Below, one piece after another: positions 12,250-59,665 of a stretch of DNA of 64,000 nucleotides (the first letter of the stretch is position 1; each line of letters opens with the position of its first letter). The translations under genes were made by a program, and so were the position numbers. This DNA is from Zygnema cylindricum. Its lineage: Eukaryota > Streptophyta > Zygnematophyceae > Zygnematales > Zygnemataceae. The notes under the pieces were generated by a model. The model saw only the letters and a program-made list of their open reading frames with translations, was not told where the DNA came from and made no database searches. Location: assembly GCA_037447655.1 (NCBI GenBank), contig JBBHKE010001578.1, positions 1 through 64,000 on the forward strand. The letters are read 5' to 3'.

Positions 12250-12726
12250 NNNNNNNNNNNNNNNNNNNNNNNNNNNNNNNNNNNNNNNNNNNNNNNNNNN
12301 NNNNNNNNNNNNNNNNNNNNNNNNNNNNNNNNNNNNNNNNNNNNNNNNNNNNNNNNNNNNNNNNNNNNNNNNNNNNNNNNNNNNNNNNNNNNNNNNNNNN
12401 NNNNNNNNNNNNNNNNNNNNNNNNNNNNNNNNNNNNNNNNNNNNNNNNNNNNNNNNNNNNNNNNNNNNNNNNNNNNNNNNNNNNNNNNNNNNNNNNNNNN
12501 NNNNNNNNNNNNNNNNNNNNNNNNNNNNNNNNNNNNNNNNNNNNNNNNNNNNNNNNNNNNNNNNNNNNNNNNNNNNNNNNNNNNNNNNNNNNNNNNNNNN
12601 NNNNNNNNNNNNNNNNNNNNNNNNNNNNNNNNNNNNNNNNNNNNNNNNNNNNNNNNNNNNNNNNNNNNNNNNNNNNNNNNNNNNNNNNNNNNNNNNNNNN
12701 NNNNNNNNNNNNNNNNNNNNNNNNNN
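12250..12726. other. Assembly gap (477 N)
   Basis: Every base is N. Family F gag enters from the left and the family D 3' LTR emerges on the right, so the join is not observed. Open frames spanning the gap are artefacts. Confidence 0.99.
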
Positions 12727-45901: not shown

Positions 45902-47497
45902 GGTTATGGGCATGTCATCAAGAATTCTTATCTTCTCGGGGGAAAAATACGCTTATTGGGCAGATATAGTGGAGACACACTTCAAAATTTTTAACCTTTT
46001 GGATATTTTTGATGGTTTACTTGCGGAAAACAGATCCGTCTTCGTCAAAGAAAAATTTGCAAGCAAGGTCCCTTTTGAAATTCTATATCTCAAAAGAATT
46101 GGCTATGTCACAAACAAAAATGAAAAAGGTGATGATATCTGGAAATATCTTAAGGATGATTTTGAAAAGACTAATATTCAGGGAGAACTATTTTTGGTTG
46201 GACGCATTTGGGACTACATAAACACGAGTGGCACAATGGCAAAATATTGTAACAAATTTTGAATACTAATATATTCTTATGCTTGTGCTGGTGGATCTTT
46301 TTTTTAGTTTCAGCAGGTTGCTTTGCTAATGAGAGGTCTTCCTACTTCTATGAAAGCAGCATCTGCTAGGCTGAAACATAAAGATAAAGCTAGCTGGACA
46401 GTACAGTTAACTATTAATTTGATATTCAAAGAGGAAACTGATTCTAAAATTCTTAATGGTGAAAAACAAGTAAAGGCATTTAGCATATAATTTGACAAAA
46501 CAGCTCAGTTTAATCAGTAGAGAAATCAGTTTAATCACAATCAGAATCAGGTTAGATAGTTTAATAAAAGAAGAAACAGACAATATTTCAATGCTTGTTT
46601 TTATTGTAACGAAAAAGGTCATGGATATAAATTTTGTATTAAGCTTAAGAGAGCTTATGAAAAAGGTCTGTACAAGCCTAGATGGCAGCAGAGCCAATTT
46701 CATCAAGGCTTCACAAGATCATCATAACAAGGAAATGCACCCTTCTCGGCGTCTTCTTCACACCAGGACGAGTCTCTTTCACTCTCTGACAAGGAGGATG
46801 AGGATCTATTTGCTATGGCGGCAGCAATGGAGGGCGCGAAAGACAGTAGATGGATAATGGACACTGGAGCGTCGACCCACATGGAACAAGGCAGTTTTCA
46901 AAAATCTGAAATCAACACCGGAGAAAAATATCGACTATGCATGTGAAATGAGTGTGCAAACGCGGGCTATAGGTGATGTCTCCTTGCTAGTTGATGTAAA
47001 AGGCAAGGCGGTTGAGAGAACTCTTGATAATGTTTTCTATGTACCAGATTTAAAAAAAAAAATGTTTTCAACTTCTTTGGTAAAGAGTAAAGGGTTTGAG
47101 GTCAATCTGAAATATGGCAGGTAGGTTGTTAGCAAAAATGAAGAAATTGCAGTTACGAGAAATAAAGATGTCAGCAAAATGAATTGAATAGATATGCCCG
47201 ATAAAAAAAAAATGATGTTTTGTATTCCGATGCATTATCCTTAGATGAGCTAAGGCATAAAAGATTACGCCATGTGAACTAGGACAGTATGAAAAAGATG
47301 GTCAATGCTGGCAAAATAGGAGTCACTTTGTCAAATCAGTAACCTAGAACGTGTGATGGTTGTGCATTAGGAAAAATACACAAATTATCATTTCCTCAAG
47401 AGTTTGAACATAAATCTACTAAACTTTTGCAACTCATTCATTCTGATGTTTTTGGCCCTGCAAAGATACCATCTGCCAGGGGAATGAAATATATGGT
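45843..47497 (+). pseudogene. Family E copia gag-protease-integrase start (truncated)
   Basis: Gag (45843-46262) reads MSTSTTIAAAPP, then a UBN2-like core (FSGEKYAYWADIVETHFK, DDIWKYLKDDFEK). Broken frames continue gag to a zinc knuckle CFYCNEKGHGYKFC near 46595. Protease keeps WIMDTGASTHM (DTG at 46860-46868). Pre-integrase and integrase N-terminus follow to 47497 (CDGCALGKIHKLSFP, LIHSDVFGPAKIP) with many stops. Coding homology ends where the Ty3 element G begins. The copy is decayed and the rest of pol is missing. Confidence 0.8.
45902..45914 (+). other. Half-tRNA-iMet primer binding site (family E)
   Basis: GGTTATGGGCATG abuts the LTR end ACA. Its first ten bases match the initiator tRNA-Met anticodon-arm complement exactly. 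It is read in the gag frame (QVMGM). Confidence 0.65.
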
Positions 47498-48770
47498 TGT
47501 CAAGCCCGTGTGCATCTTTGGCACACTTACACTCCCAGGAGTTCCGAGGCCTCATCCCACCTTGTAAGGACTCCAGCGTATTGAGAAAGGGAGGACAACT
47601 AGCCTGATCAGATCTTTGTATTTTCATTTTGGAGCACTACGCACTTTTGTTCACCTTAAACAGAGGTCGAATGGCGGAGTTAGTCCGAGGCAAAGGTGTC
47701 GGCTCCATTACATAACATCCGTTCTATGTAGCTCTAGCAGAGGGGTACATTGTGGAACTACACGCAACCTTTGGGAATGTCCCGTTGATCTTGCTGTTAG
47801 CTGCAGTAGGATTTTAGTTCGTGCCTAACGGGTAAGTAGAGCATTTATGACTTAGGGTCAAAGTTAGGCGTTTCACGTCAATTCACAACTTTGTGGCCTA
47901 CTAGTGTACAATAGGAGGACCTTTGGCTGCCAATCGAGCCGGAGCCAGTCGTCTAACTTTTTGCCCTGAGTGTAGTACAGTGTGTTTTGTCTTATGTAAT
48001 TTTGATAACAATTTCTGGCCACTGATTAGCTTTTGGCATTGCTTTGTCTTTGACACCTGCAGTAGGACAAACTTTGGTTGTATGTGGCACTTTGGGCCGA
48101 AGGAGACAGGTTGCTTTTTCATAACTGTCCCCTGAGAAAACCCCTAGAGAATTAAATCAATTTTTTTGTTGGGAAACAGTTCCATTGTATTATGGACTCT
48201 ATTGCCATCTTTATTTTGGATTGTCTTTTGTAGAGACCGTAGCTCGGGTGAGAAGTTGACAGTACCCTCTCTTTTGGGCCGTTTGGATTTTTGTTGTTTC
48301 AAACTTAGAAGAGTCTAGTCGGATCCGTACGGCGCACCCGAGGGGTGAGGGAGACTTATACCTGTCTTTGGGGCCATTTGAAGTGCTTCTTCTTCTAAAG
48401 TTTTATCATCTTTGTACTCCGGGGTATGTGAGCTCGCTTCACCATTTTCATTTATTTCCATTCTCTGGTGCATCGTGATAATGTTAAATATGAAAAAGCC
48501 GATCTTTATTATTTCTATATTTCTGCGTGGAGGTTATTTGCACATTCTTGTGGTATTCTTTCGGGTTTGTGCGGGTTTCTTGTGGGCCAAATCAGGCAAA
48601 TCGCATTTCCTTTCTATTCTTTAAATAGTGGTCAAAGGTGTAATATTTAGTTGGCTTCCGGTGGATAAGCACAATACTGAATATCGACCTGTTTCCTTTG
48701 GTTAAAGAGGATAGCTATTACGGGTGGTGTACTTTTATAGAGAGATCTAGCTCCTCTGTTCCGATAGGTC
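47498..48770 (+). mobile_element. Ty3/gypsy element G, 5' LTR and leader
   Basis: The segment starting TGTCAAGCCCGTGTGC matches 59589-59660 near the other end of the element, including ACTCCCA(G/C)GAGTTCCG and GGCCTCATCCCACCTTGT. The LTR extent and primer site could not be fixed. The leader continues to the first long ORF at 48771. Confidence 0.65.
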
Positions 48771-49514
48771 ATGGGCGGAGGAGAAGCTCAGGATAAGGAT
48801 CTTCCCCGTGTCAATCCGGAAAAATGGGAGAGGCAAGAAGCAGTGGTACAAGAGGAAGAGTCACAGGTGCCCGAGGAAGCAGTCCCTTTCACCTCAGCTT
48901 TAAACATATATCACTTCCTTCAGGAAATGATGTTAGAGCCTTCTATAGTTGAGACTCCTCCAAAACAGCCAAAGAGGCAACCCTCTCCTCCACCTCTTTT
49001 TGTCTTTTCCCCTGAGAATTTCCCAACTTTGTCCGAGGCGGCCAGATCTAAGGACGCGGAGAAGGAGGAGAGACGAAAACTGTCCCCCAAATTGAGCAGG
49101 AAGGGCTTGGCACATAAGGAATCGGTCCCCGGTCACCCTGTCGAAGTGGGACGTCATACGAGATCTAAGGCTACAATAGTGGAGATATACATGGATCCCA
49201 AAATTTTATCAAATCTTAAGCGGCCAGGTCGCAAGGAAATCTTAGGCCTTCACAATCTCCTTGAGTTGAAAGTTAAGAAAGAGTTGGTGGAGCGTGTAGC
49301 AATGTCAGACCGAGCCAAGATCGTACGCCCTGCGGAAGGTGTAGTTGAAATATTGAGCAGTTCATTAGAGAGTGGCTCTTCAACCTTAGTCTGGGAGCAA
49401 CAACGGATGCCTTTGACTTCACACAAACAGCCCATCCGATCTCGGGACACTGCCACCATTACACCATCGCGGAGCAGGGCAACCTCTTCAAATCTGGTCA
49501 GGGGAAGGAACTAG
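48771..49514 (+). CDS. Element G ORF of unknown function (gag N-terminal region?)
   Basis: A 247-codon open frame begins MGGGEAQDKDLPRV. It is acidic and Pro-rich at first (PPKQPKRQPSPPPLF). It then has a basic segment (RRKLSPKLSRKG, HTRSKATIVEIYMDP) and a Ser/Arg-rich tail. I see no zinc knuckle or catalytic motif and do not recognise the family. Its position at the 5' end of the coding region suggests an extended gag N-terminus or an extra ORF. It is one of the longest uninterrupted frames in the element. Confidence 0.6.
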   Translation: MGGGEAQDKDLPRVNPEKWERQEAVVQEEESQVPEEAVPFTSALNIYHFLQEMMLEPSIVETPPKQPKRQPSPPPLFVFSPENFPTLSEAARSKDAEKEERRKLSPKLSRKGLAHKESVPGHPVEVGRHTRSKATIVEIYMDPKILSNLKRPGRKEILGLHNLLELKVKKELVERVAMSDRAKIVRPAEGVVEILSSSLESGSSTLVWEQQRMPLTSHKQPIRSRDTATITPSRSRATSSNLVRGRN

Positions 49515-49953
49515 CAAACGAGAGTTACTAAAGACCAAGAGAGTGCACCGGTTTGACCACCATGACAGTAAAGGCAGGTTCAAGCCAGTTGTTAAGGAAG
49601 AAACGTTACCCCCCACCAGGTTAACCGCACCAAAAAACTTCTCCGGTTGCACCAATCGTTCTACCTCCGAGAGGATTGTTGAGTACCATGGAAACAGATC
49701 CAGAAGTTTCGGGCATGGGGATTGAAGATTTGACTAAGATGGTTAGCACGGTTCAAGAGTTGGTGGAAATAGTAAAGGCACAGGGTCAAGCTTCTAGGGG
49801 GGTTGGACCGGTTACGGTAGATTGGGAGGTGTTAGAAAATGAAAGGCGGGCTTTACGGGAACAGGAGTTGAACCTTATACAAGAAGTGAGGCTTAGGTCT
49901 CGCGGACTTCCCAGTGGGCAGATGCTCACTTCCCTTGGGATAGGACCATAAAC

Positions 49954-51103
49954 TGAAACTCTGAGACCTCCATTGGCCCTCACAGTATGCACATCCAAAA
50001 GAAGCTAATCTAGATAGTGCCAACTCCAAGTTGATATAAACCCAAATGACTGACCCCTTGACAGTCATGACCCCAATATAGATTCACCTTTGTGAAATAA
50101 CACTTTCTGTTTGTTCAGTTCCACCACAGAATGTAAAGCTAGAATATGAGATTTGGACACATTCACACACTTTGACATTCCCTTAAAATAAGTGCCACCC
50201 TGGCACGTAAAGACTCTGTCCAAATACACCATTGTGTAGCCTGGACTCTCTTGAGTCCGCAGCGAAAAGAATCACGGAAAATGGTCAAGTAAATTGATAG
50301 TTATGGCTGACCAAAGTTTGCCATTTATACAAGGTGCTCTCTAGGAGAAGCAGCTACCTACCAAAAATATTCTGAGTCCTATTCCCTCTCTAAAACCCCT
50401 TCTACTGAAGTACGGCGCCAATCATAGGACTGTACCATACAAAAAATTACGGGCACCGATGTACTTTATGAACGGTAATTGTACGACAGGGCCGTATAGG
50501 TGACATTTGTCACATCCGGATTTGTTGTCTTGTACTCCGGGAATTCCGCAAACTTGTACGATGTCGCCACGTGTCATCCGGAGTGGCGGCATCCAGAAAA
50601 CGCCAAAACGCCCTATCCGCAATCTCGGCTCCTACCACGGCTGTTTGATGAATACCCGATTTTAATCCTAGCCGTCGAAAAGGATGTTGTTTCGATAATT
50701 CCGTGCGGTCCGAAATCCGTGCGTACTAATTCATTTCCATGTTCTGCCCGTCCTGTAATTAGTTAAATGAAAGATGTTACGGGGTAATGTTTTTATATTT
50801 ATTGTACCCTATATGGTCTAGTAGTGATCTTAGGCTATAGGTTAAAGTTACCGGCTGTCAAAGTCTTGACGGACTGGAGGGTCCAGGATCAAATCCTGGA
50901 TCCGTCAAGACCCTTTTTAGTAAAACCCACCATTATTTACTCCTGTCTCTCTAGAGAGCTTAGGCAGCCATGGCTTTAGCTCCCTTTCTAGCCTTCAGTG
51001 ACTACAATAAGTGTGGGGGCTTGGAGAAGGGAGTTTAGAGGCAGACTTCCACTACTCTTTTTCCTATCCTAATAAAGACCTAGAAAATACTCAAATATAA
51101 ACA
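49954..51103 (-). mobile_element. Solo LTR (family A alpha) inserted in element G
   Basis: It runs from TGAAACTCTGAGACCTCC to TATAAACA (1150 bp), flanked by a perfect 5-bp duplication TAAAC (49949-49953 and 51104-51108). There is no internal sequence. This is a clean LTR-LTR recombination product. Confidence 0.93.
50838..50918 (+). promoter_or_regulatory. tRNA-like module in family A LTR (copy 10)
   Basis: GTCTTGACGGA and TCCGTCAAGAC form a perfect 11-bp inverted repeat around an inner TCCAGG/CCTGGA hairpin with loop ATCAAAT. TTTTT follows at 50914-50918. An A-box-like GGTTAAAGTTACCGG precedes it. It is antisense to the LTR. Confidence 0.55.
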
Positions 51104-51343
51104 TAAACCAGAGCATCAGTACACGAACCCTCAGTTATCTCGGAAACACCCCTAGGGATGCCTCCTCCAACGACCAACCGAGACACCCCTCTTCAGCGGG
51201 AAGGGGGTGGAACTAAAGGACCTAATGGGAAGGGTTTGGGTGTAGATATACTTTCTGACATTGCCGCTTCTCCTCGAGGAGTGCGAACTGTTGTTTCGGT
51301 GGAAGACGCCTTTGCAGTAGTAGCCTTGGTTGAATTACGATAG

Positions 51344-51926
51344 GACTAAAGGGTTCACATTCCCTTGAGGGCATCCACTATGTCCACCATTCCCTGCTCT
51401 TATCTCTTCTCCTTCGCCACCCTTTTTTTCAGCTGCAGCAGTCCGCGGATCATCGGATCCCCCAGTCTTACCTTACAAATACACCGCTTACTCACCTCCT
51501 CACAGGCAATCCCCATTCTCCACTACTGGAACTCCTCCTCCCGAGCGTTCGAAGAGGCGGCATAAGAAACATACACCCTTTAGGAGACAGACACCTTCTC
51601 CTCGAAGCTTCTAGTTGTCAACGTCTTCGCCGCTATCTATTTGCGAGGGACCTTGACCACGTCTTCACATCCCCTCGGTCAAAACTGTTCTCAGGGAAAA
51701 ACATGCCTCTCTTAAATATAGATGAGCAGACAACACACCCTCTTCTTCAAGAGGACAACCTTCCTCAGTGGGGGGGGGGACCACTACTGCTGCTACCGTC
51801 TATCCTATCAGAGGAGGGACCAGGTCATATCTCTAGGGAGTAGATCGCGGAGCAATCTCACCGGTTCAATTTGTTAGCCCCACCCAACAGATCTCATCAT
51901 GTTTCAAGAGCCCTAACGAGGAGGAA
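51344..51926 (+). other. Element G linker, broken frames
   Basis: This is a Pro/Ser-rich, frameshifted stretch between ORF segments. No domain was recognised. A run of nine G occurs near 51771-51779. Confidence 0.4.
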
Positions 51927-52973
51927 ATGAAAATAGGGGACATCCGCATCTTCACAGGGGACAACTCGGGAATTGATTTTTTTTATTTTGAACCACTCTG
52001 GAAATCCTTCACTCAGTCGGAAATCAACAAATACAAGGGAAGGGCCTTACCCGCAGATTTTGAGACCACTCTTTTTCCTATTATGGTGAACTATCTTGTA
52101 GGAGGAGCTTTAGCTGACTATGAGGAACGTCAACCCTCTTTAATGGCTCCTAACATCAAAACCTCAAATCCAACGCTTGACGTTGAAGCCTGGGACGCAG
52201 CCGCCGACTTGGCCGCCGCAGCAATCCCTGTAAGTGCTACTTTCACAATGGACATGAAACATCAGGCCGAAGGAAGGGCCTATGTCAACCATCTGTTGGC
52301 CATACAAGCTGCCAAGGAAGCCACTCGGATGGTTGCCAGTTTAACCCCCTGCACCACTCTTTTAGACTCCTTCAGACTCTTTTATACAGAAAGGAACGAA
52401 ATTGCAATCAAAGAGTTCACGGACTTTCAATGTTTGAAAAATGAAACCCCTCAGACATTGTTTAATCGCCTCTCGAGCCTCTGTCAAAAGACGAAGCTGT
52501 CTACCATTAACACACCACCTATGGCCTCAAAATATTATGTCGCAGTTCGAAATTCGTTCGGACCAACAGGACAAGCCATTCTCAACAATTGGAGTGCTAG
52601 TCAGGCAATCCACGACAAGAATCCAACAGCGTAAGAAATTTCAGTGGCTGCTATGAAGTTATATAATCATTATTTAAACAGTGAAGCCTGACAAAAGGCG
52701 GTTACAGGCAAACCGCGAGCCAATTTCACAAGTTTCACGGGGGAATCCTCTCTTAACTAAGAGGAACAAACAAAACTTTAAGCTTTGCGGAAGCTTAAGG
52801 GAAAACAAGAAGTTGAGACTAGACCCGAACCTGCAATGGGTAAAGATCAAAAAGTTTACCTGTACAACTGCCTGAACTGCAACCAAACCGGTCACGGGCG
52901 GAAGCGATGCCCCAGGAAGCTCAACCCGGAACTCGCTATGAAGCAAAACGAGTTTGAGAAAGAAGAGGCATAA
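51927..52973 (+). pseudogene. Element G gag (capsid plus zinc knuckle)
   Basis: An open frame of 235 codons (51927-52634) has the Ty3-type capsid pattern: FTGDNSGIDFFYFEPLWKSF, a middle segment with FRLFYTERNEIAIKEFTDF, and ETPQTLFNRLSSLC plus NSFGPTGQAILNNW. A stop at 52634 and frame changes follow. A CX2CX4HX4C zinc knuckle (CLNCNQTGHGRKRC) lies at about 52868-52909. Gag would assemble the particle and bind element RNA. Confidence 0.75.
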
Positions 52974-54082
52974 AGGACCCGGAAGCAATAAGAACGTAGG
53001 CTGGGAGGTGGAGGAGGGGATCCCAGGCCGGTCACCAAAGACACTTATAAACCTACTCCCCGCTCTGAAACGGCAAAGATGTCTCAATCCTAGTTGAGAC
53101 AAATCAGATTTCCTAAATTTGACGATGCTCAGATCTCGAATGAGCTAAGGGGGATGTATGCCACAAAGGGGTCCAAATGTGAGGCTTTTAGGTTCATGTG
53201 CCACAAAGAAAGGCAATGTTTCCGAAAGAATGGGGTCCCCAAAAAAATGTTGCAATATGCTTTGTTCATATGCAAAAGGGAAACATCCGTTAATACTCTA
53301 CCGATGGAGCTTTAGTATTCCCGGGGATGTCGATCTTACGATGAACCTGAACCCACCAAACTGACGACGGAGCACATCATTCAGCAACAAAGCACGCTAT
53401 TGGCCACCTTGGCTGCAGAAACGGCTGTTATCCGATTGGGATCGAATGCCCACACACCTCCACCATTAACACCGGCTCAAAAACTACAAAAACAAAAACA
53501 AGAATTGCTACAAAAGCTGGCGGAGCTGGAACAGCATACCACTTAGGGTGGAGATGATGATGACCTAATAGGTTGGGATATAGAGCCTCCCAAGGCTCAT
53601 CACGCCCGGACATTTCTGTCCGGAGCCTAGAACGTTGGAATCAAGGACAATCGCAGGCACCTGCGCTCTACAACGTCCTCTCAAAGAAAGGATAAATAGC
53701 CGAGGGAACAAAAGTACCACAACCGCAAAGCCTTCGGTCCTCTATCCTTCAAACCGCGAGCGGTTCTTCTAAACAATGACATTGGGTTGGGCCTAAAGCC
53801 GACTCATCCACCTCCTCTGGCTCCAAAGAAACTTCCTCCCTATTTCAAAGATTGCAAGAAACCACAGCCGGAAAAGGATCTTTCAACCATTGAGACAGAT
53901 CATGAATGGTTCGACCTATACCTAGTTGAAAGACCACCAGCAAATCTGCCAATTACACCTCCAACAACAAATTTTGACGCAAAAAGTGAAGAAGCAGGGG
54001 AGGGGAACAGGAGAAATCAGAAGACGACAATTCACCCATTTCATCGTCCAAAGCTCTCCCTCTTTCCTCCAAACTGGCAGTA
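52974..54082 (+). other. Element G region between gag and protease, broken frames
   Basis: Short open segments occur at 53094-53315, 53158-53364 and 53787-54083, the last with a Pro-rich start HPPPLAPKKLPPYF. They belong to the element by position. No catalytic motif was recognised. A coiled-coil-like Gln/Lys/Leu stretch lies around 53470-53540. Confidence 0.4.
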
Positions 54083-54619
54083 ATGCTAGTACAACACCAG
54101 ATGCCCTACGCTCTAACTCACGTCAAAACGCTAGCCTCCTCACACAATGTGCCTGAACAGACACTCATACAAGCAATGGGGGAAGAGATTCACACCAAGA
54201 GGGAAAGGGTCGCTTTGGCAGAACCACCCAAGACATCCTTCATGTCGATAGAACCAAAAACTTCTATGGCGGATAGAGATTATAAGGCCCTGTCAGTGGC
54301 TTTTATTCTTAATAGGACAAGAAATTTTAAAATTAATAGATACAGCGGGTATCAAGATGCAATGGTGGACATCGGAGCACTTCCTAATCTCATAACCACC
54401 ACAACACTGCAACAAATGCCCAAAACACTCCTACCAAAAATCAGCCCAAGTGACATATGCTTCGGTACAATCAGCAATGGTAGCCACCCAGTTTATGGTA
54501 TCATAAAAGCAATGGAAATCGAATTTGCGGATAAGGCAAGACAACGCGTACAAATTCATCTTCCCTTCCAAGTGGTGGATGGTAAGCAATTTAAGAGTTT
54601 GTTGGGTATGGCTACGTAG
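54083..54619 (+). CDS. Element G retropepsin-like protease
   Basis: This 178-codon frame has the aspartic protease core. The active-site block reads AMVDIGALPNLI, corresponding to the usual VD(T/S)GA-x-x-N-(F/L)-I, so Ile replaces the Thr/Ser next to the catalytic Asp. Downstream FQVVDGKQFKSLLGM matches the flap-to-C-terminal ILG region. The DIG substitution probably abolishes or lowers activity. It follows gag and precedes the methyltransferase, consistent with a gag-PR-DNMT-RT order. Confidence 0.7.
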   Translation: MLVQHQMPYALTHVKTLASSHNVPEQTLIQAMGEEIHTKRERVALAEPPKTSFMSIEPKTSMADRDYKALSVAFILNRTRNFKINRYSGYQDAMVDIGALPNLITTTTLQQMPKTLLPKISPSDICFGTISNGSHPVYGIIKAMEIEFADKARQRVQIHLPFQVVDGKQFKSLLGMAT

Positions 54620-54625
54620 ACAAGA

Positions 54626-56100
54626 TTGAACATGGAATTGAGCGTTTCGAAGGAGCAAGTTACAGTGTTAGACCCGAAAAACCTCGAGGGCAGAAAAGTG
54701 GTGGTCCCCTTGGATTTATGGAACCAGGGGAGAATATCTGTTCCAGTGTCTGGATGCTATCTCATGTACACTGCATTCACCCCTTCGGAGCTGTTCGAAG
54801 GCTCCACCAATATCGCTGAGTCCATCTAGCAAATCCTTATTTCCAAGCGGTGGGAAAGGGAGTATCAAAACAGATTGGCACATATGACCACACTTCGGCG
54901 AGAAGTGGACAGGAGCTTTGCTGCAATATTACTCGGAACGGTAAAGGTTATCCGGTCAGAACTTCCAAAAGTTGCTAACAAAAAGAAGGATTTCAATCGA
55001 CAAGTGGTGTCACTCGAGATCTCGCCTTCAAGACTCAGAATTCAATTTCTATTTTTCTGCATTAGTTTTTGACTTGGAAGCTGTTCTAATATCTGGAGAC
55101 CGACTAGAAGCATAATCGGCAGTCAAAATTGACCAAGATGCCCGTGCAGTTAGTGAGTATAGACTTCAACAGCTGCACCAACTTTACCCATAAAAACTCC
55201 CGGTGTCTACCATGTCTAACTCTCACCATACTCTTCCCCAAAATGTGTACAACATCATGAAGTCACATTTGGAGAAGCTTAGAAAGTTATATCTAATAAT
55301 CGTCGGATGGCCGTGCCAAGGATATTCGTTAGAAGGACGGGGCAGGGGACACCAGGATGTTCGTAGCAAGACATTCTTTTAGATGACGTGATTGATAACA
55401 GAGTTATAGGGACGTTAGGGAACGCAAGTGGGGTACATCTTGGAAAATGTTCACCTCACAGATGACAAAAGGAAATGGGTGGTCGATAGCTGGAATAAAG
55501 TGATTAAGGTTCAGGGGACTCCCATAGTCTTTGATGAAGCTCAGATTGGATCAAGAGCCCATAAAGTTTGGGCTTATTGGACCAACTTGATTCATCTTCC
55601 CATCCTCCAGCAGCTGTTGAAAACAAAGGTTTCGGATCCCAGCATAATGTTTAACAGATTCTTCGACAAAGGCGAATGGCCACCCCCTTGACCAAAGCCA
55701 AACGAGCACCATTCTTTTGTTGCAATCATCTTGGAAATCCACGGAGAGCCCTACCAATACTGGTATCATTCCCTAGCAGCCATGCTTACCAAAAAAAGGC
55801 ACCAGGGATGATATTTGACAGTTCAACCGATACGTGGACAGCACCAAGTATTGAGGAACGAGAACAAGCAATGGGATTTTAACAAACAACCACAGCAGCC
55901 CCAAGGGTCTCAGTCTCAAAAAGGTGTAGTTAAATCGGACAAACTATGAATTTATATGCAATTTTCTGGGTTTTGCAACATTCTTTGGCATTTTCGAGCC
56001 TACACTCTCCACAGTCAAGGGCAACATACCTTCAAGCTCCACAGTTGTTGGCCATACAAGCCACTGTACAGCTTGAGGGGGGGAGAAAGGCAAGGAGGGA
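54626..56100 (+). pseudogene. C5-cytosine DNA methyltransferase domain within Ty3 element G
   Basis: The methyltransferase motifs appear in order. A degenerate motif I lies around 55040-55090. A motif II-like VKIDQDARAV is at about 55122-55151, and motif IV GWPCQGYS has its catalytic Cys codon at 55314-55316. The GRGRG-DVRSKTFF segment follows. Motif VI is LENV, with ENV at 55443-55451, in the same frame. A motif VIII-like GSRAHKVWAYWTN is near 55548. After a frame change, EEREQAMGF (about 55850-55882) and the motif X-like IGQTMNL (55934-55954) follow. The order and spacing fit a DNMT3/DRM-like or retrotransposon DNMT. Several stops (TAG, TGA) between motifs IV and VI and at least one frameshift make this copy non-functional. 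It lies between protease and RT, so it is part of the element. Confidence 0.82.
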
Positions 56101-56271
56101 AAAATTCACAAAATAAGATCGCTCACTGAACCCTGGAGTTTTCTCAATAGGGGGGAGCGGAGGCTTCCATCAAGAAGTCGTAAGTAGGAGCGTTTTTGGA
56201 GCCGAGCACGGAACAGATCCATAGGTAGAGCTTAAATTTGACATCTCCCTCTGGGGCTGACCCCCGAAAGC

Positions 56272-57210
56272 ATGGGATGTAGTGGAACCCGAGAGGATAG
56301 ATTGGGCTCTAAGGGAACAGCTAAACACACAGCAAAAGGCTTAGATCTCCAAGCTTTTAGAGGAGAACGAGCAGGTATTCTCTTAGTCAGACACACAGAT
56401 ATAGGAATCTATAAAGGGACATTTTTTCGGATCGATTTGACGAACGCGACGTCAACTATTTGGGAGAAACAGTACCCTCTAAGCTTCAAAGAGAAGGAGT
56501 TCATTACCACAAAGATGCAGACTTTGGAAGATGCACGATTGGTGCAAGAGTGTACAAGGCTTCATGGGTTTGCCTTTGTGATAGTGCTCCGGCCAAAGAA
56601 ATACGCCTTCAAGAAAACTAAAGATTTCTGGATATGTGGGCACTATCGGATGCTCAATGCGCCAACTGTCTCCGATCCTTATCCCATGCCCACCCCTTCG
56701 ACTCTCTTGTTGGGGCTACCATCTACTCCACGTTGGATATGAAGAATGAATTCCACCAAATTGCAATGGAGCCAAAGCATTGAGAGAGGACAGCTTATTG
56801 GGCAGGATCATGGTTCTACAAGTAGTTGTATATGCTGTTTGGCCTCAACAATGCACCTGCCAAATTCCAACGGGCTATGGACGAGGCCCTCAAAGGAATT
56901 GATTGTGCACGGTGTTACATCGACGATGGGATTATTTTTTTGTAGACATTCGATAAACACATAGAGCATATAAAGATTGTTCTCCGGGCTCTCCAAGCAG
57001 CGGGCTTCAAGTGCCACCAGGGGAAAGGCATCTTTGGGGTGCACAAAATCATTTATCTGGGTCATGAGGTGACTCTTGGGAGAATGGGTCCGCACATGGT
57101 TAAGGTGACAGCTCTTGACTCACTTCCACCCCCGCAGGACATTTCTGCCCTCCGAACTTTCTTGGGTCTGGGCAACTACTACCAAAGGTTTATCCCCGAA
57201 TTCAACAGCC
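56272..57210 (+). pseudogene. Element G reverse transcriptase (Ty3/gypsy type)
   Basis: Palm and fingers motifs are present: EKQYPLSFKEKEFITTKM, HGFAFVIVLRPKK, GHYRMLNAPTVSDPYPMP, then in another frame LFGLNNAPAKFQRAMDEAL. The catalytic CYIDD is at 56913-56927. The thumb follows with IYLGHEVT and LRTFLGLGNYYQRFI. At least two frameshifts (near 56740 and 56850) and stops disrupt it. The arrangement places it in Ty3/gypsy, not copia. It would have copied the element RNA into DNA. Confidence 0.85.
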
Positions 57211-57761
57211 ACGCCTAGCCATTGAATCAGTAATAATGGAAAAACCAGGAGTGGTAGTGGGCTGAAAAACAGCAGATCGCTTGCAGTTCCTCAAAGATTC
57301 CCTCAAGCAACATCTTGTGCTCCAGATGCTTGATCATCATCGACCTTTCCTCTTGTATACTGACTGGAGTAGGTTCGGATTGGGAGCAGTGTTGGCTCAA
57401 TTGGACGATGTAAGGGCGGAGTACGTCGTGGCATACGCAAGCCAAAGTAATAACAGAGGCGAGGAATTATAGCAGTTACCACAGGGAATTACTCGCCGCA
57501 CTATAAGCAATCCAACATTTCAGGCCTTACCTCTATGGAGTGCACTTCACGCTTATTACGGATCACCAGCCCCTTAAATGGATAATGAAGAATAGTAAGT
57601 TGACCGGCAAGCTAGCTAGATGGGTTCTCATATTGCAAGAAAACAATTTCAGCATCATCCACCGAGCAGGGGAGATTCATGGGAATGTAGACGGGCTCAG
57701 TAGAAATCCAGACCCCTCCACGAGAGACTCCACCGAAGCTCGAAACGATGAAGACCTGTAG
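57211..57761 (+). pseudogene. Element G RNase H
   Basis: Blocks typical of Ty3 RNase H are FLLYTDWSRFGLGAVLAQLDD (first Asp region), YVVAYASQS, YHRELLAAL, and FTLITDHQPLKWIM followed by LARWVLILQENNFSIIHRAGEIHGNVDGLSR. Stops near 57220 and 57470 break the frame. The domain lies directly behind RT, as expected. Confidence 0.8.
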
Positions 57762-57779
57762 CTTAGCTTGGGACTAATC

Positions 57780-59100
57780 TGAGATTCCTTTGCCTTCATT
57801 TGGCAACCTCGAGCAGAGGGAGAACTGTCAACTTTTACTGCGGTTGTCGAATGGCATGCTTCCCTTGGAGTCGGCCGCACAGATATTTGGAATGAGACTG
57901 ATGCTTTTCAGTCCATCCTGAAGGGTTCCCCTATTTCCCATCTAGCTGGAAGCCACTTATCGCGTGTTCAAACCCGGATGGTGGCATATGAATGGGATCG
58001 AGGCATCCTCTCAAAAAATGGGCCGATATGACAAGGAAAATGGTTCCTCCTCCAGCAGATCAAAAACCCTCATTGTTGGTCTTTACTAGCAATTCGGGCA
58101 TTTTGGATAGAAACGGACCACCTCCTTAGTCACAGGGTCGTATTAGTGTCATGGGTTACGGGCCTAAGTCAACCGCGTGGTGTTGACATGCCCATCCTGT
58201 GACCGAGTGAAAGCTGCCTTTGACCAAAAAGGTGGAACAAAACTTCACTCCTTTCCCATCCAAGGAATGTTTTACAATTGGTCACTGGATTTGTTGAGAC
58301 TACTTCCAACCAGCAGGAGGGGATATCGTTTTGTTTTGGTAATTATTGAACACTTCCCCAAATGGGTAAAATTGGTGGTTTTGCCCTAAAATGAATCAAT
58401 AGCGATCGCGAACGCATTTTTGCAAAGAGTATTGTCCCAATTTTGAGCACCAGCCCAAATTCTGACAAATCAGGGGTCTGAGTTTGCCGGAGAATTATCT
58501 AACCTTCTCAAAAAGTGCCTCATTTACCACCGGTTAAGCAGTCGAGACCACCCCTAAGAAGACGGTATGGTAGGGAGGTGCCTACAAATAGTGAAGCGGT
58601 CATTACGGAATTATGCGGTGGAAAAGGATTTGGGGGAATGGGATAGACGGGTGCCTTGGATTGCCATGGGATACAAGTTCTGTCGGTAGGCATCCCTCCA
58701 CTCCTATAGCCCCTTACTTCATTCTCTTCGACCGACATCCCATCTTACCTAGAGCTGCATTGGCTCAAGCGGTTGTGCTTCCAGAGATGGACAACCGTGG
58801 GACTGTAGAGAAACTTATTGCCGACATGGCCTAGGTATTTCACCAAGAAATACCTCTGGCTATGGGCAATTTACAAGCTGCTCAGCAGAGGGATGAGCTT
58901 TGGTATTCCCAACGGTGGAGCGGCAATTATGTCCCTCGCCAAAGGCGATTCGTGCCCGATGTTTTTGTGTATCGCATGCAACAAAAGAAATATAGTTCAG
59001 AAATCTCCACCAGACGGGTCATTGTGAAAGTAGTGGAGGTCTTTAACAAAGGGGTTCTTTCCTTGGAAGGGAAAGATGGCCGCAAAATTAAAGAAAATTA
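57780..59100 (+). pseudogene. Element G integrase, catalytic residues lost
   Basis: A CPSCDRVKAAF segment (about 58188-58220) is the end of the zinc-binding region. The core follows: WSLDLLRLLP (first Asp), ILTNQGSEFAG, where the usual Asp is Asn, and EDGMVGRCLQIVKRSL, where the usual catalytic Glu position reads Gly. The C-terminal part (RRFVPDVFVYRMQQ, VVEVFNKGVLSLEGKDG, 58862-59101) resembles the integrase C-terminal barrel. Stops and frameshifts are frequent. It could not integrate DNA. Confidence 0.78.
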
Positions 59101-59374
59101 GATCAATGTGGCCCCTTACCATCTACGAGGGCTAGAGGACGAACCCATTTTCCACCTCACTTACTTTGAATACCCGCCCTCTTACACCTTTACTTGCGAT
59201 GTTTCCTCCGTACCCAACCTCTTGTTGATGTGTGAACACTATCACCGAGGTGGCATGACTGTTGGTTACCGCTAAATTGTGAGCCCCACTCTCAACCCGA
59301 AAATTCGTTGTTCTGTGGGGACTGCGAATTTGGCGGCTAATTTATCTAATCCTCTTAGTCAAGCGAGACTAAGA
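59101..59374 (+). other. Element G 3' tail, partly open
   Basis: After a TAG at 59099 the integrase frame stays open for about 57 codons (INVAPYHLRGLEDEPIFHLT, then FEYPPSYTFTCDVSS, ending MTVGYR). No chromodomain was recognised. Confidence 0.5.
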
Positions 59375-59388
59375 GGGGGGGGGGAATC
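59371..59388 (+). other. Polypurine tract of element G
   Basis: AAGAGGGGGGGGGGAA (G run 59375-59384) is a strong polypurine tract. If it abuts the 3' LTR, the LTR would begin near TGGGAAGG at 59389. The matched terminal sequence TGTCAAGCC starts later, at 59589, so the LTR boundary is unsettled. Confidence 0.6.
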
Positions 59389-59588
59389 TGGGAAGGGGTA
59401 TGAGATACTTTTTCTTTTCACTCAATTCCTCATCATTACCTATGCATAGTTCAAGGTGGGGGAAAGGGCCTGAAAATGGCATGGTCACGAATGCGAGGGA
59501 CATCAAGATTTGGGTTGGATTGCAGGTTTCTTATGCACACCTCAAACCTCTTACCTAAACCTCACGGTTCTTAGGCACACTCGACAGC

Positions 59589-59665
59589 TGTCAAGCCTGT
59601 GTACATCGTTGGCACACTTGCACTCCCACGAGTTCCGGGGCCTCATCCCACCTTGTACGGAATCT
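59589..59665 (+). mobile_element. Element G 3' LTR fragment
   Basis: About 77 bp match 47498-47570 (TGTCAAGCC, GGCACACTTGCACTCCCA, CCTCATCCCACCTTGT). The match is cut at 59665 by the family C LTR. Confidence 0.8.

Follow-up and report, generated by a model that had tools for sequence, protein, structure and literature searches.

A 64,000-nt stretch of the Zygnema cylindricum genome (contig JBBHKE010001578.1, positions 1 to 64,000; hereafter the window) carries the remnant of a C5-cytosine methyltransferase (DNMT) inside a decayed Ty3/gypsy element, confirming the proposal of a sequence-only reading of this DNA. That reading suggested a search of the genome for intact copies, and we found these to encode the DNMT in one polyprotein with reverse transcriptase (RT), RNase H and integrase. 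Their sequences indicate that the DNMT, often accompanied by a PHD finger, belongs to a large, little-described group of elements. New in this family are the PHD finger, two domain orders, a proline/glutamate (Pro/Glu) switch at the active site and a wider host range; it is otherwise of a known kind. Cytosine methylation is usually directed against transposons, and elements that carry a methylation writer themselves turn this arms race round. The size of the family, its young intact copies, the PHD finger and the recurrent Pro/Glu switch make the role of a self-encoded DNMT testable.

A methyltransferase remnant inside a decayed element

C5-methyltransferase motifs had been claimed for positions 54626 to 56100, and we found them there. 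VKIDQDARAV, GWPCQGYS, LENV and SRAHKVWAYWTN share one frame (55053-55688), so the placement of motifs II, IV and VI in a single frame was correct; EEREQAMGF and IGQTMNL are encoded on that strand too, but in a different frame. In a six-frame Pfam scan of ~54600-56100, the frame 55119-55691, its stop codons replaced by X, gave a significant PF00145 match (E 8.8e-6; 25.8 bits, the Pfam cut-off being 22 bits), and the other five frames gave none. The single open frames around the window DNMT had no DNMT match in Pfam because the gene is broken, with five stop codons in 55119-55691.

Positions 54830-59337 are colinear with the intact polyprotein P0005 and preserve its order; protein identity is 66%-79% for the majority of the larger blocks, with one block at 52%. 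Colinearity at such identity makes a chance origin of the window motifs untenable. The match is spread over all three frames of the window strand and, together with the five stops, identifies the window DNMT as a pseudogene, a dead copy. Its location inside a Ty3/gypsy element is borne out by the remnants in Table 1, by the colinearity with P0005 and by the intact relatives.

The ends of the element were set by a direct repeat (76 bp, 89%; 47498-47573 and 59589-59664) and by colinearity with the C1374 copy (window 47496 to 59586), whose LTR length of ~1188 bp was placed from the position of its second complementary arm. The open reading frame at 48768-49514 has a start that resembles that of the frame at L013:397. 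The nested LTR that splits the element probably belongs to copia elements, because of the sequences that neighbor it. No Pfam family scored above its cut-off in the gag-like frame, and the protease-like remnant had no Pfam match; its active-site triplet is DIG in the window copy and DTG in the copy L018. Pfam detected Integrase_H2C2 (E 7.1e-7) and, below its cut-off, rve (E 1.6e-4). The identity of the PHD remnant leans on the Pfam PHD matches of intact copies.

Nested copia-type elements make up most of window positions 1-47000, where LTR-like repeats of ~1.15 kb recur many times in both orientations; a run of N occupies 12250-12726. A stretch resembling a tRNA T-arm by eye lies at 50860-50910, near the end of the nested LTR, and neither ARAGORN nor Rfam called tRNA or RNA genes in the window.

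Table 1. Features of the methyltransferase-bearing element in the window
Feature	Position	Strand	Remarks
Decayed Ty3/gypsy-type LTR retrotransposon with DNMT, split by a nested insertion	~47498..59664	+	
5' LTR	47498..48679	+	End placed (~48670-48680) by colinearity with the C1374 copy
Gag-side coding region, first part	48768..49951	+	
Nested LTR, ~1.17 kb, of a probable copia-type family recurring in the window	49954..51122	+	Self-comparison
Gag-like open frame, 265 aa	51837..52634	+	
Retropepsin-like protease remnant	54335..54619	+	Limits approximate, by eye
UAG in frame, next codon CAA, separating the protease from the DNMT part	54827..54829	+	
DNMT domain, motifs I-VIII, single frame with stops	55053..55688	+	
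DNMT C-terminal part, other frame	55709..55990	+	
Reverse transcriptase remnant	56398..57218	+	RVT_1 E 6.8e-17; limits approximate
RNase H remnant	57219..57761	+	PF17917/PF17919; limits approximate
Integrase remnant, H2C2 zinc-binding part and rve core	58063..59251	+	
C-terminal PHD finger remnant	59251..59337	+	Colinear with P0005 1492-1520
3' LTR start, truncated, 76-bp stub	59589..59664	+	

Intact copies, relatives and domain orders

A PF00145 search of the window's own genome (352.8 Mb, 2689 contigs) saw 782 candidates at first, of which 659 went unscored and all 123 that were scored gave matches; these are not a count of element copies, since at least one (L007) is a host gene. We read 21 of the 123 places, 16 at 10 kb (mostly with long open frames) and five short loci. 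Matching open frames reach 2395 codons and show the same domain order at separate loci. In a Pfam scan of five such frames, DNMT, RT, RNase H, integrase and PHD occurred together in L009, L012 and L013, and DNMT with RT in L018 and L023. The order in intact copies is DNMT-RT-RNaseH-integrase-PHD, and no chromodomain was found by Pfam at E 0.01 in L009, L012 or L013. The zf-CCHC match stayed below its cut-off in both L009 (E 0.0086) and the window (E 0.41), with the pattern CX2CX4HX4C legible.

There are two main lineages, family A (the window's own, with GWPCQ) and family B (with GWECQ), which are 42% identical to each other; two further P-type copies, L003 and L018, are 59% and 53% identical to family A, respectively. 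The family B copy L009 is a single 2395-codon frame in which a gag-like part comes first, a protease-like stretch follows and the PHD finger is last. It is flanked by a plain pair of LTRs, 100% identical over 931 bp, which points to a recent insertion and hence to a family that has moved recently. No clear target-site duplication was seen at the L009 flanks, where the exact LTR end is unsure, and no LTR pair was found within ~3 kb on each side of the family A copy L013. Identical DNMT stretches are shared between different contigs by L024 and L002 (285 codons) and by L008 and L023 (325 codons); these are either recent copies or haplotype duplicates of the assembly.

The exon-like stretch L007:1498-1797 had as its best PDB matches 9mvy, 7ubu and 4fsx (E about 8e-28), compared with 6.6e-12 at best for other DNMT1 chains. 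We take 4fsx to be the maize chromomethylase ZMET2. The stretch is thus a probable exon of a host chromomethylase. A passage in PMC6453930 places the first appearance of chromomethylases in charophytes, which makes a streptophyte host probable from this locus.

The element DNMT is DNMT3-like, by sequence for families A and B and by predicted fold for the relative P0037. DNMT3A was the best PDB match of both family A (E 1.1e-14) and family B (E 9.2e-11). The 41 chains matching family A at E 0.001 or better were DNMT3A, 3B, 3C, M.HhaI and one other cytosine-specific methyltransferase, with DNMT1 absent by name among them. An AlphaFold2 model of P0037, a Glu-type relative with DNMT, integrase and PHD, had a mean pLDDT of 74.5 and a pTM of 0.43; pLDDT in its DNMT part was mostly 81-95, with a dip near residues 270-290. 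In a structure search of this model, the DNMT part matched DNMT3A/3B catalytic chains with a target-normalized TM of about 0.8, the next part matched foamy-virus and Ty3 integrase, and all of the best 50 of 581 fold matches were of DNMT3 or integrase kinds. The motif order is canonical (PF00145, alignment), unlike that of the permuted DRM.

The DNMT domain is under purifying selection. Its dN/dS was 0.13-0.43 in close family A pairs, 0.11-0.37 in family B pairs with dS below 1 and 0.54 for L018-L003, with saturated-dS pairs left out and the ratios given as point estimates. Between L013 and L012, dN/dS was 0.14 for the DNMT, 0.10 for RT-RNaseH, 0.09 for the integrase, 0.29 for the linker and 0.32 for the first 60 codons. 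The PHD stretch, with a ratio of 0.35 over 65 codons, is not tightly constrained.

A search for relatives found two proteins with the broken window frame as query and 43 with the intact P0005 domain, among them four from Marchantia polymorpha and one each from Closterium sp. NIES-53 (38% identical), Closterium sp. NIES-54 and Klebsormidium nitens. At this identity, NIES-53 is unlikely to be closely related to the host. A shortened query gave 39 proteins, 37 of them new. These shorter proteins appear to be largely polyprotein fragments, because their flanks match polyproteins wholly or in part; the less clear cases are P0071, P0076, P0081 and P0085. The sequence-only reading would have been contradicted by the domain occurring outside elements with RT and integrase, and we found no clear free-standing DNMT relative among length-limited proteins sharing short words with the query. 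A comparison of P0065 with viral contigs, in which a virus-borne free-standing DNMT was sought, yielded 13 pattern matches, none encoding a relative. By eye, each Marchantia protein opens with a gag-like region, followed by two zinc-knuckle-like motifs, a protease-like DSGA stretch and, last, the DNMT; Retrotrans_gag matched one of the four below its cut-off (E 3.5e-4). We found no open-licence PMC paper naming any of five Marchantia gene identifiers.

An RT match was present in 28 of the 48 proteins; the DNMT precedes RT in 12 of them and follows RT-RNaseH in the other 16, lying before the integrase where an integrase is present. A PHD finger was detected in 26 of the 31 integrase-bearing proteins (BLAST, E 0.01; some matches short). 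The integrase proteins that lack a BLAST match to PHD are P0028, P0029, P0034, P0040 and P0047; a Pfam PHD is listed for P0047 all the same, and P0034 and P0040 are incomplete.

We inferred a DNMT tree of 58 rows and an RT tree of 24 rows; all elements in both trees bear a DNMT. The DNMT tree combines human DNMT3A and the window sequence with chosen own-genome copies and 44 of the 48 proteins, P0001 and P0002 being excluded and two more protein rows being own-genome frames. The change in domain order takes one step on each tree, with support of 100/98 on the RT tree. Several pairs recur on both (P0003/P0014, P0040/P0015, family A/P0006 and P0026/P0032); the pair P0016/P0035 occurs on the RT tree only, and P0028 stands beside Closterium P0029 in the RT tree, a placement that the DNMT tree leaves open. 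The single change of order and the recurring pairs indicate that the DNMT has largely been inherited together with its element.

Active-site variation and a proposed role

At all five pattern-matched loci (C633, C1042, C1374, C544 and the window), an in-frame UAG CAA, a candidate readthrough context of viral type, lies upstream of the DNMT frame. The DNMT stretch shared by C633 and C1042 is identical in the two, which may represent one recent duplication. No UAG precedes the DNMT of the family B copy L009.

Within the L009 LTR, 18 nt (positions 457-474) are complementary to sequence at the LTR end. Complementary arms exceeded all 100 shuffles, which keep single-base content only, in six of 11 regions; these pairs are 14-21 nt long and of several different sequences, and the arms of L017 exceed the shuffles by one base only. 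No arms beyond the shuffles were found in the other five (L010, L011, L014, L015 and the window). We discarded the window's own 11-nt complementary pair as support for priming: it falls within the shuffled range, and by our own reading the place of its second arm is not homologous to that in the C1374 copy.

To our knowledge, C5-methyltransferases almost always have a proline before the nucleophilic cysteine. In our alignment this residue was Pro in 31 and Glu in 26 of 57 rows, with no other letter. The catalytic Cys is kept in 56/57 rows, the motif VI Glu in 58/58 and each of the two motif VIII arginines in 57/58. The window copy and family A have the Pro-Cys of motif IV, and family B replaces the Pro and keeps the Cys. 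Among the 37 shorter relatives, which stand outside the trees, 30 read PCQ and three ECQ, with four unread. The Pro/Glu label changed four times on the first DNMT tree, with at least three changes forced by supported branches, and five times once that column and three long rows were removed. A single clade of Glu rows was rejected in a comparison of two trees (p 3.6e-107), the group having been chosen after inspection of the tree. Both states are under purifying selection within the window's own genome. We found no open-licence PMC paper on ECQ and PCQ methyltransferase variants.

Tentatively, and at somewhat less than even odds, element-borne DNMT3s may fall into two catalytic classes, with the Glu class a natural active-site variant of altered chemistry, target or control; together with the PHD finger, this would unite a chromatin writer and a chromatin reader in one polyprotein. 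Two side observations concern the same alignment and copies. The Klebsormidium-type proteins P0040, P0065 and P0072 have EHV in motif VI, and nearly all others ENV or similar. The pol stretches of P-type copies are CpG-poor (observed/expected 0.62-0.64 in four copies, L012, L013, L018 and L023; 0.60 in the window pol), and those of the E-type family B have ratios of 0.83-0.93 (three copies, L009, L010 and L022); the CpG poverty of the P-type may reflect methylation or codon use.

The best explanation of these data, to which we assign a probability of about one half, is that a DNMT-bearing element methylates its own cDNA and docks on chromatin through its PHD finger. The default product would be Gag-protease, and readthrough of the UAG would give a smaller amount of DNMT-RT-RNaseH-integrase-PHD. 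The RNA of the element would fold back on the binding site and so prime its own reverse transcription; de novo methylation of the product by the DNMT would take place within the particle or pre-integration complex, and the PHD finger would steer the integrase to chromatin bearing a given histone mark. A new copy would thereby arrive already methylated, in chromatin where methylation is normal. Sensors of foreign or unmethylated DNA would miss it, and the host would suffer less damage. The role suggested in the sequence-only reading, self-methylation or mimicry of host methylation, is plausible. The components of this scheme read directly from sequence are the domain order, the intact copies, the purifying selection on the DNMT and the UAG at five loci.

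Passages of PMC5890265 report de novo CG methylation in yeast by two Symbiodinium retrotransposon DNMT3s and no activity there for the Klebsormidium DNMT, a result that its authors call inconclusive. Activity of the Glu-type DNMTs (26/57) cannot be assumed. Relative to L013, the window copy showed no CpG-specific decay: 61 of 200 CpG read TG or CA (~15% per cytosine), and non-CpG changes (C>T 154/974, G>A 161/1033) occurred at the same rate. This comparison does not support reading CpG decay as proof that the window copy was once methylated.

The DNMT might instead act on chromosomal copies and not on cDNA, restraining its own element by silencing integrated copies or slowing transposition. 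A slowed retrotransposition rate is one of the options named in the text of de Mendoza et al. (PMC5890265), and the CpG poverty of family A copies, intact ones included, is what lasting CG methylation could leave; but this poverty is possibly codon use, and purifying selection within the element would hardly maintain a purely restraining trait. We consider such restraint unlikely. An equally doubtful alternative, which concerns above all the Glu lineages, is that the particle keeps the DNMT fold for its structure or for binding nucleic acid, or that the domain methylates RNA, with DNA methylation not being its task. The Glu found before the catalytic Cys in 26/57 rows, with its four or five changes on the trees, would suit such a function, as would the inactivity in yeast described for the Klebsormidium enzyme in PMC5890265; however, the conservation of the catalytic Cys, the motif VI Glu and the motif VIII arginines exceeds the needs of a scaffold. 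Finally, we found nothing in favor of a host DNMT gene or retrocopy lying in a gypsy element by chance, or of an assembly artefact, and can practically dismiss both in view of the long open frames that repeat one domain order at separate loci, the joint occurrence of DNMT and gypsy parts in Klebsormidium and Closterium records as well as in many other contigs, and the agreement of the RT and DNMT trees on the two architectures.

Comparison with known systems

The resemblance to reported charophyte retrotransposon DNMTs that the sequence-only reading had noted holds, in that the window element and the published charophyte element belong broadly to one kind. This known parallel is KnitGypsy-Dnmt3 of Klebsormidium nitens, as presented in the text of de Mendoza et al. 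2018 (PMC5890265). Shared features are a gypsy Pol, an intronless and unpermuted DNMT3-class domain, and purifying selection. P0040 (KFL_009030040, K. nitens, partial) is 42% identical to family A over 75% of the query and has the order DNMT-RT-integrase; we infer that it is the published KnitGypsy-Dnmt3 element. Unlike the DIRS-like repeats of Klebsormidium, as the legend of Fig. 4 in PMC5890265 describes them, the repeats of L009, the one element examined in this respect, are a plain LTR pair. As far as its main text goes, PMC5890265 makes no mention of PHD, of readthrough, of self-priming or primer binding, of a proline/glutamate switch or PCQ, or of Marchantia, Closterium or Zygnema. None of the open-licence PMC matches listed was a paper on a methyltransferase with PHD in a Ty3 polyprotein of streptophytes.

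The dinoflagellate SymbioDIRS-Dnmt3 and SymbioLINE-Dnmt are, like the elements described here, retrotransposons bearing a DNMT. SymbioDIRS-Dnmt3 likewise carries its DNMT3 in Pol, and the two SymbioDIRS structures given in the text of PMC5890265 differ in domain order, in parallel with the two architectures that we observed. SymbioDIRS-Dnmt3 is a DIRS element with a tyrosine recombinase and SymbioLINE-Dnmt a LINE, whereas ours are LTR elements with an rve integrase.

As in chromoviruses, a domain of chromatin-reader type lies C-terminal of the integrase; it is a chromodomain in chromoviruses and a PHD finger in L009, L012 and L013, and P0038 lists both Chromo and PHD. We know of no DNMT in ordinary chromoviruses. 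Tf1/sushi-type Ty3/gypsy elements are self-primed, and Tf1 uses the extreme 5' end of its mRNA as primer. Our elements, candidates for self-priming, resemble this type in that part of the LTR is complementary to sequence located at the LTR end or shortly downstream of it.

A passage in PMC12344493 notes earlier reports of DNMT3s carried by LTR and DIRS elements in streptophytes and dinoflagellates, and the published case, as laid out in the text of PMC5890265, rests on dinoflagellates and one charophyte. For land plants, a 2019 statement in PMC6338049 holds that they are without DNA-methylase-encoding transposons. The four Marchantia polymorpha proteins, with their gag-like, zinc-knuckle-like and DNMT parts, would speak against this statement for a liverwort.
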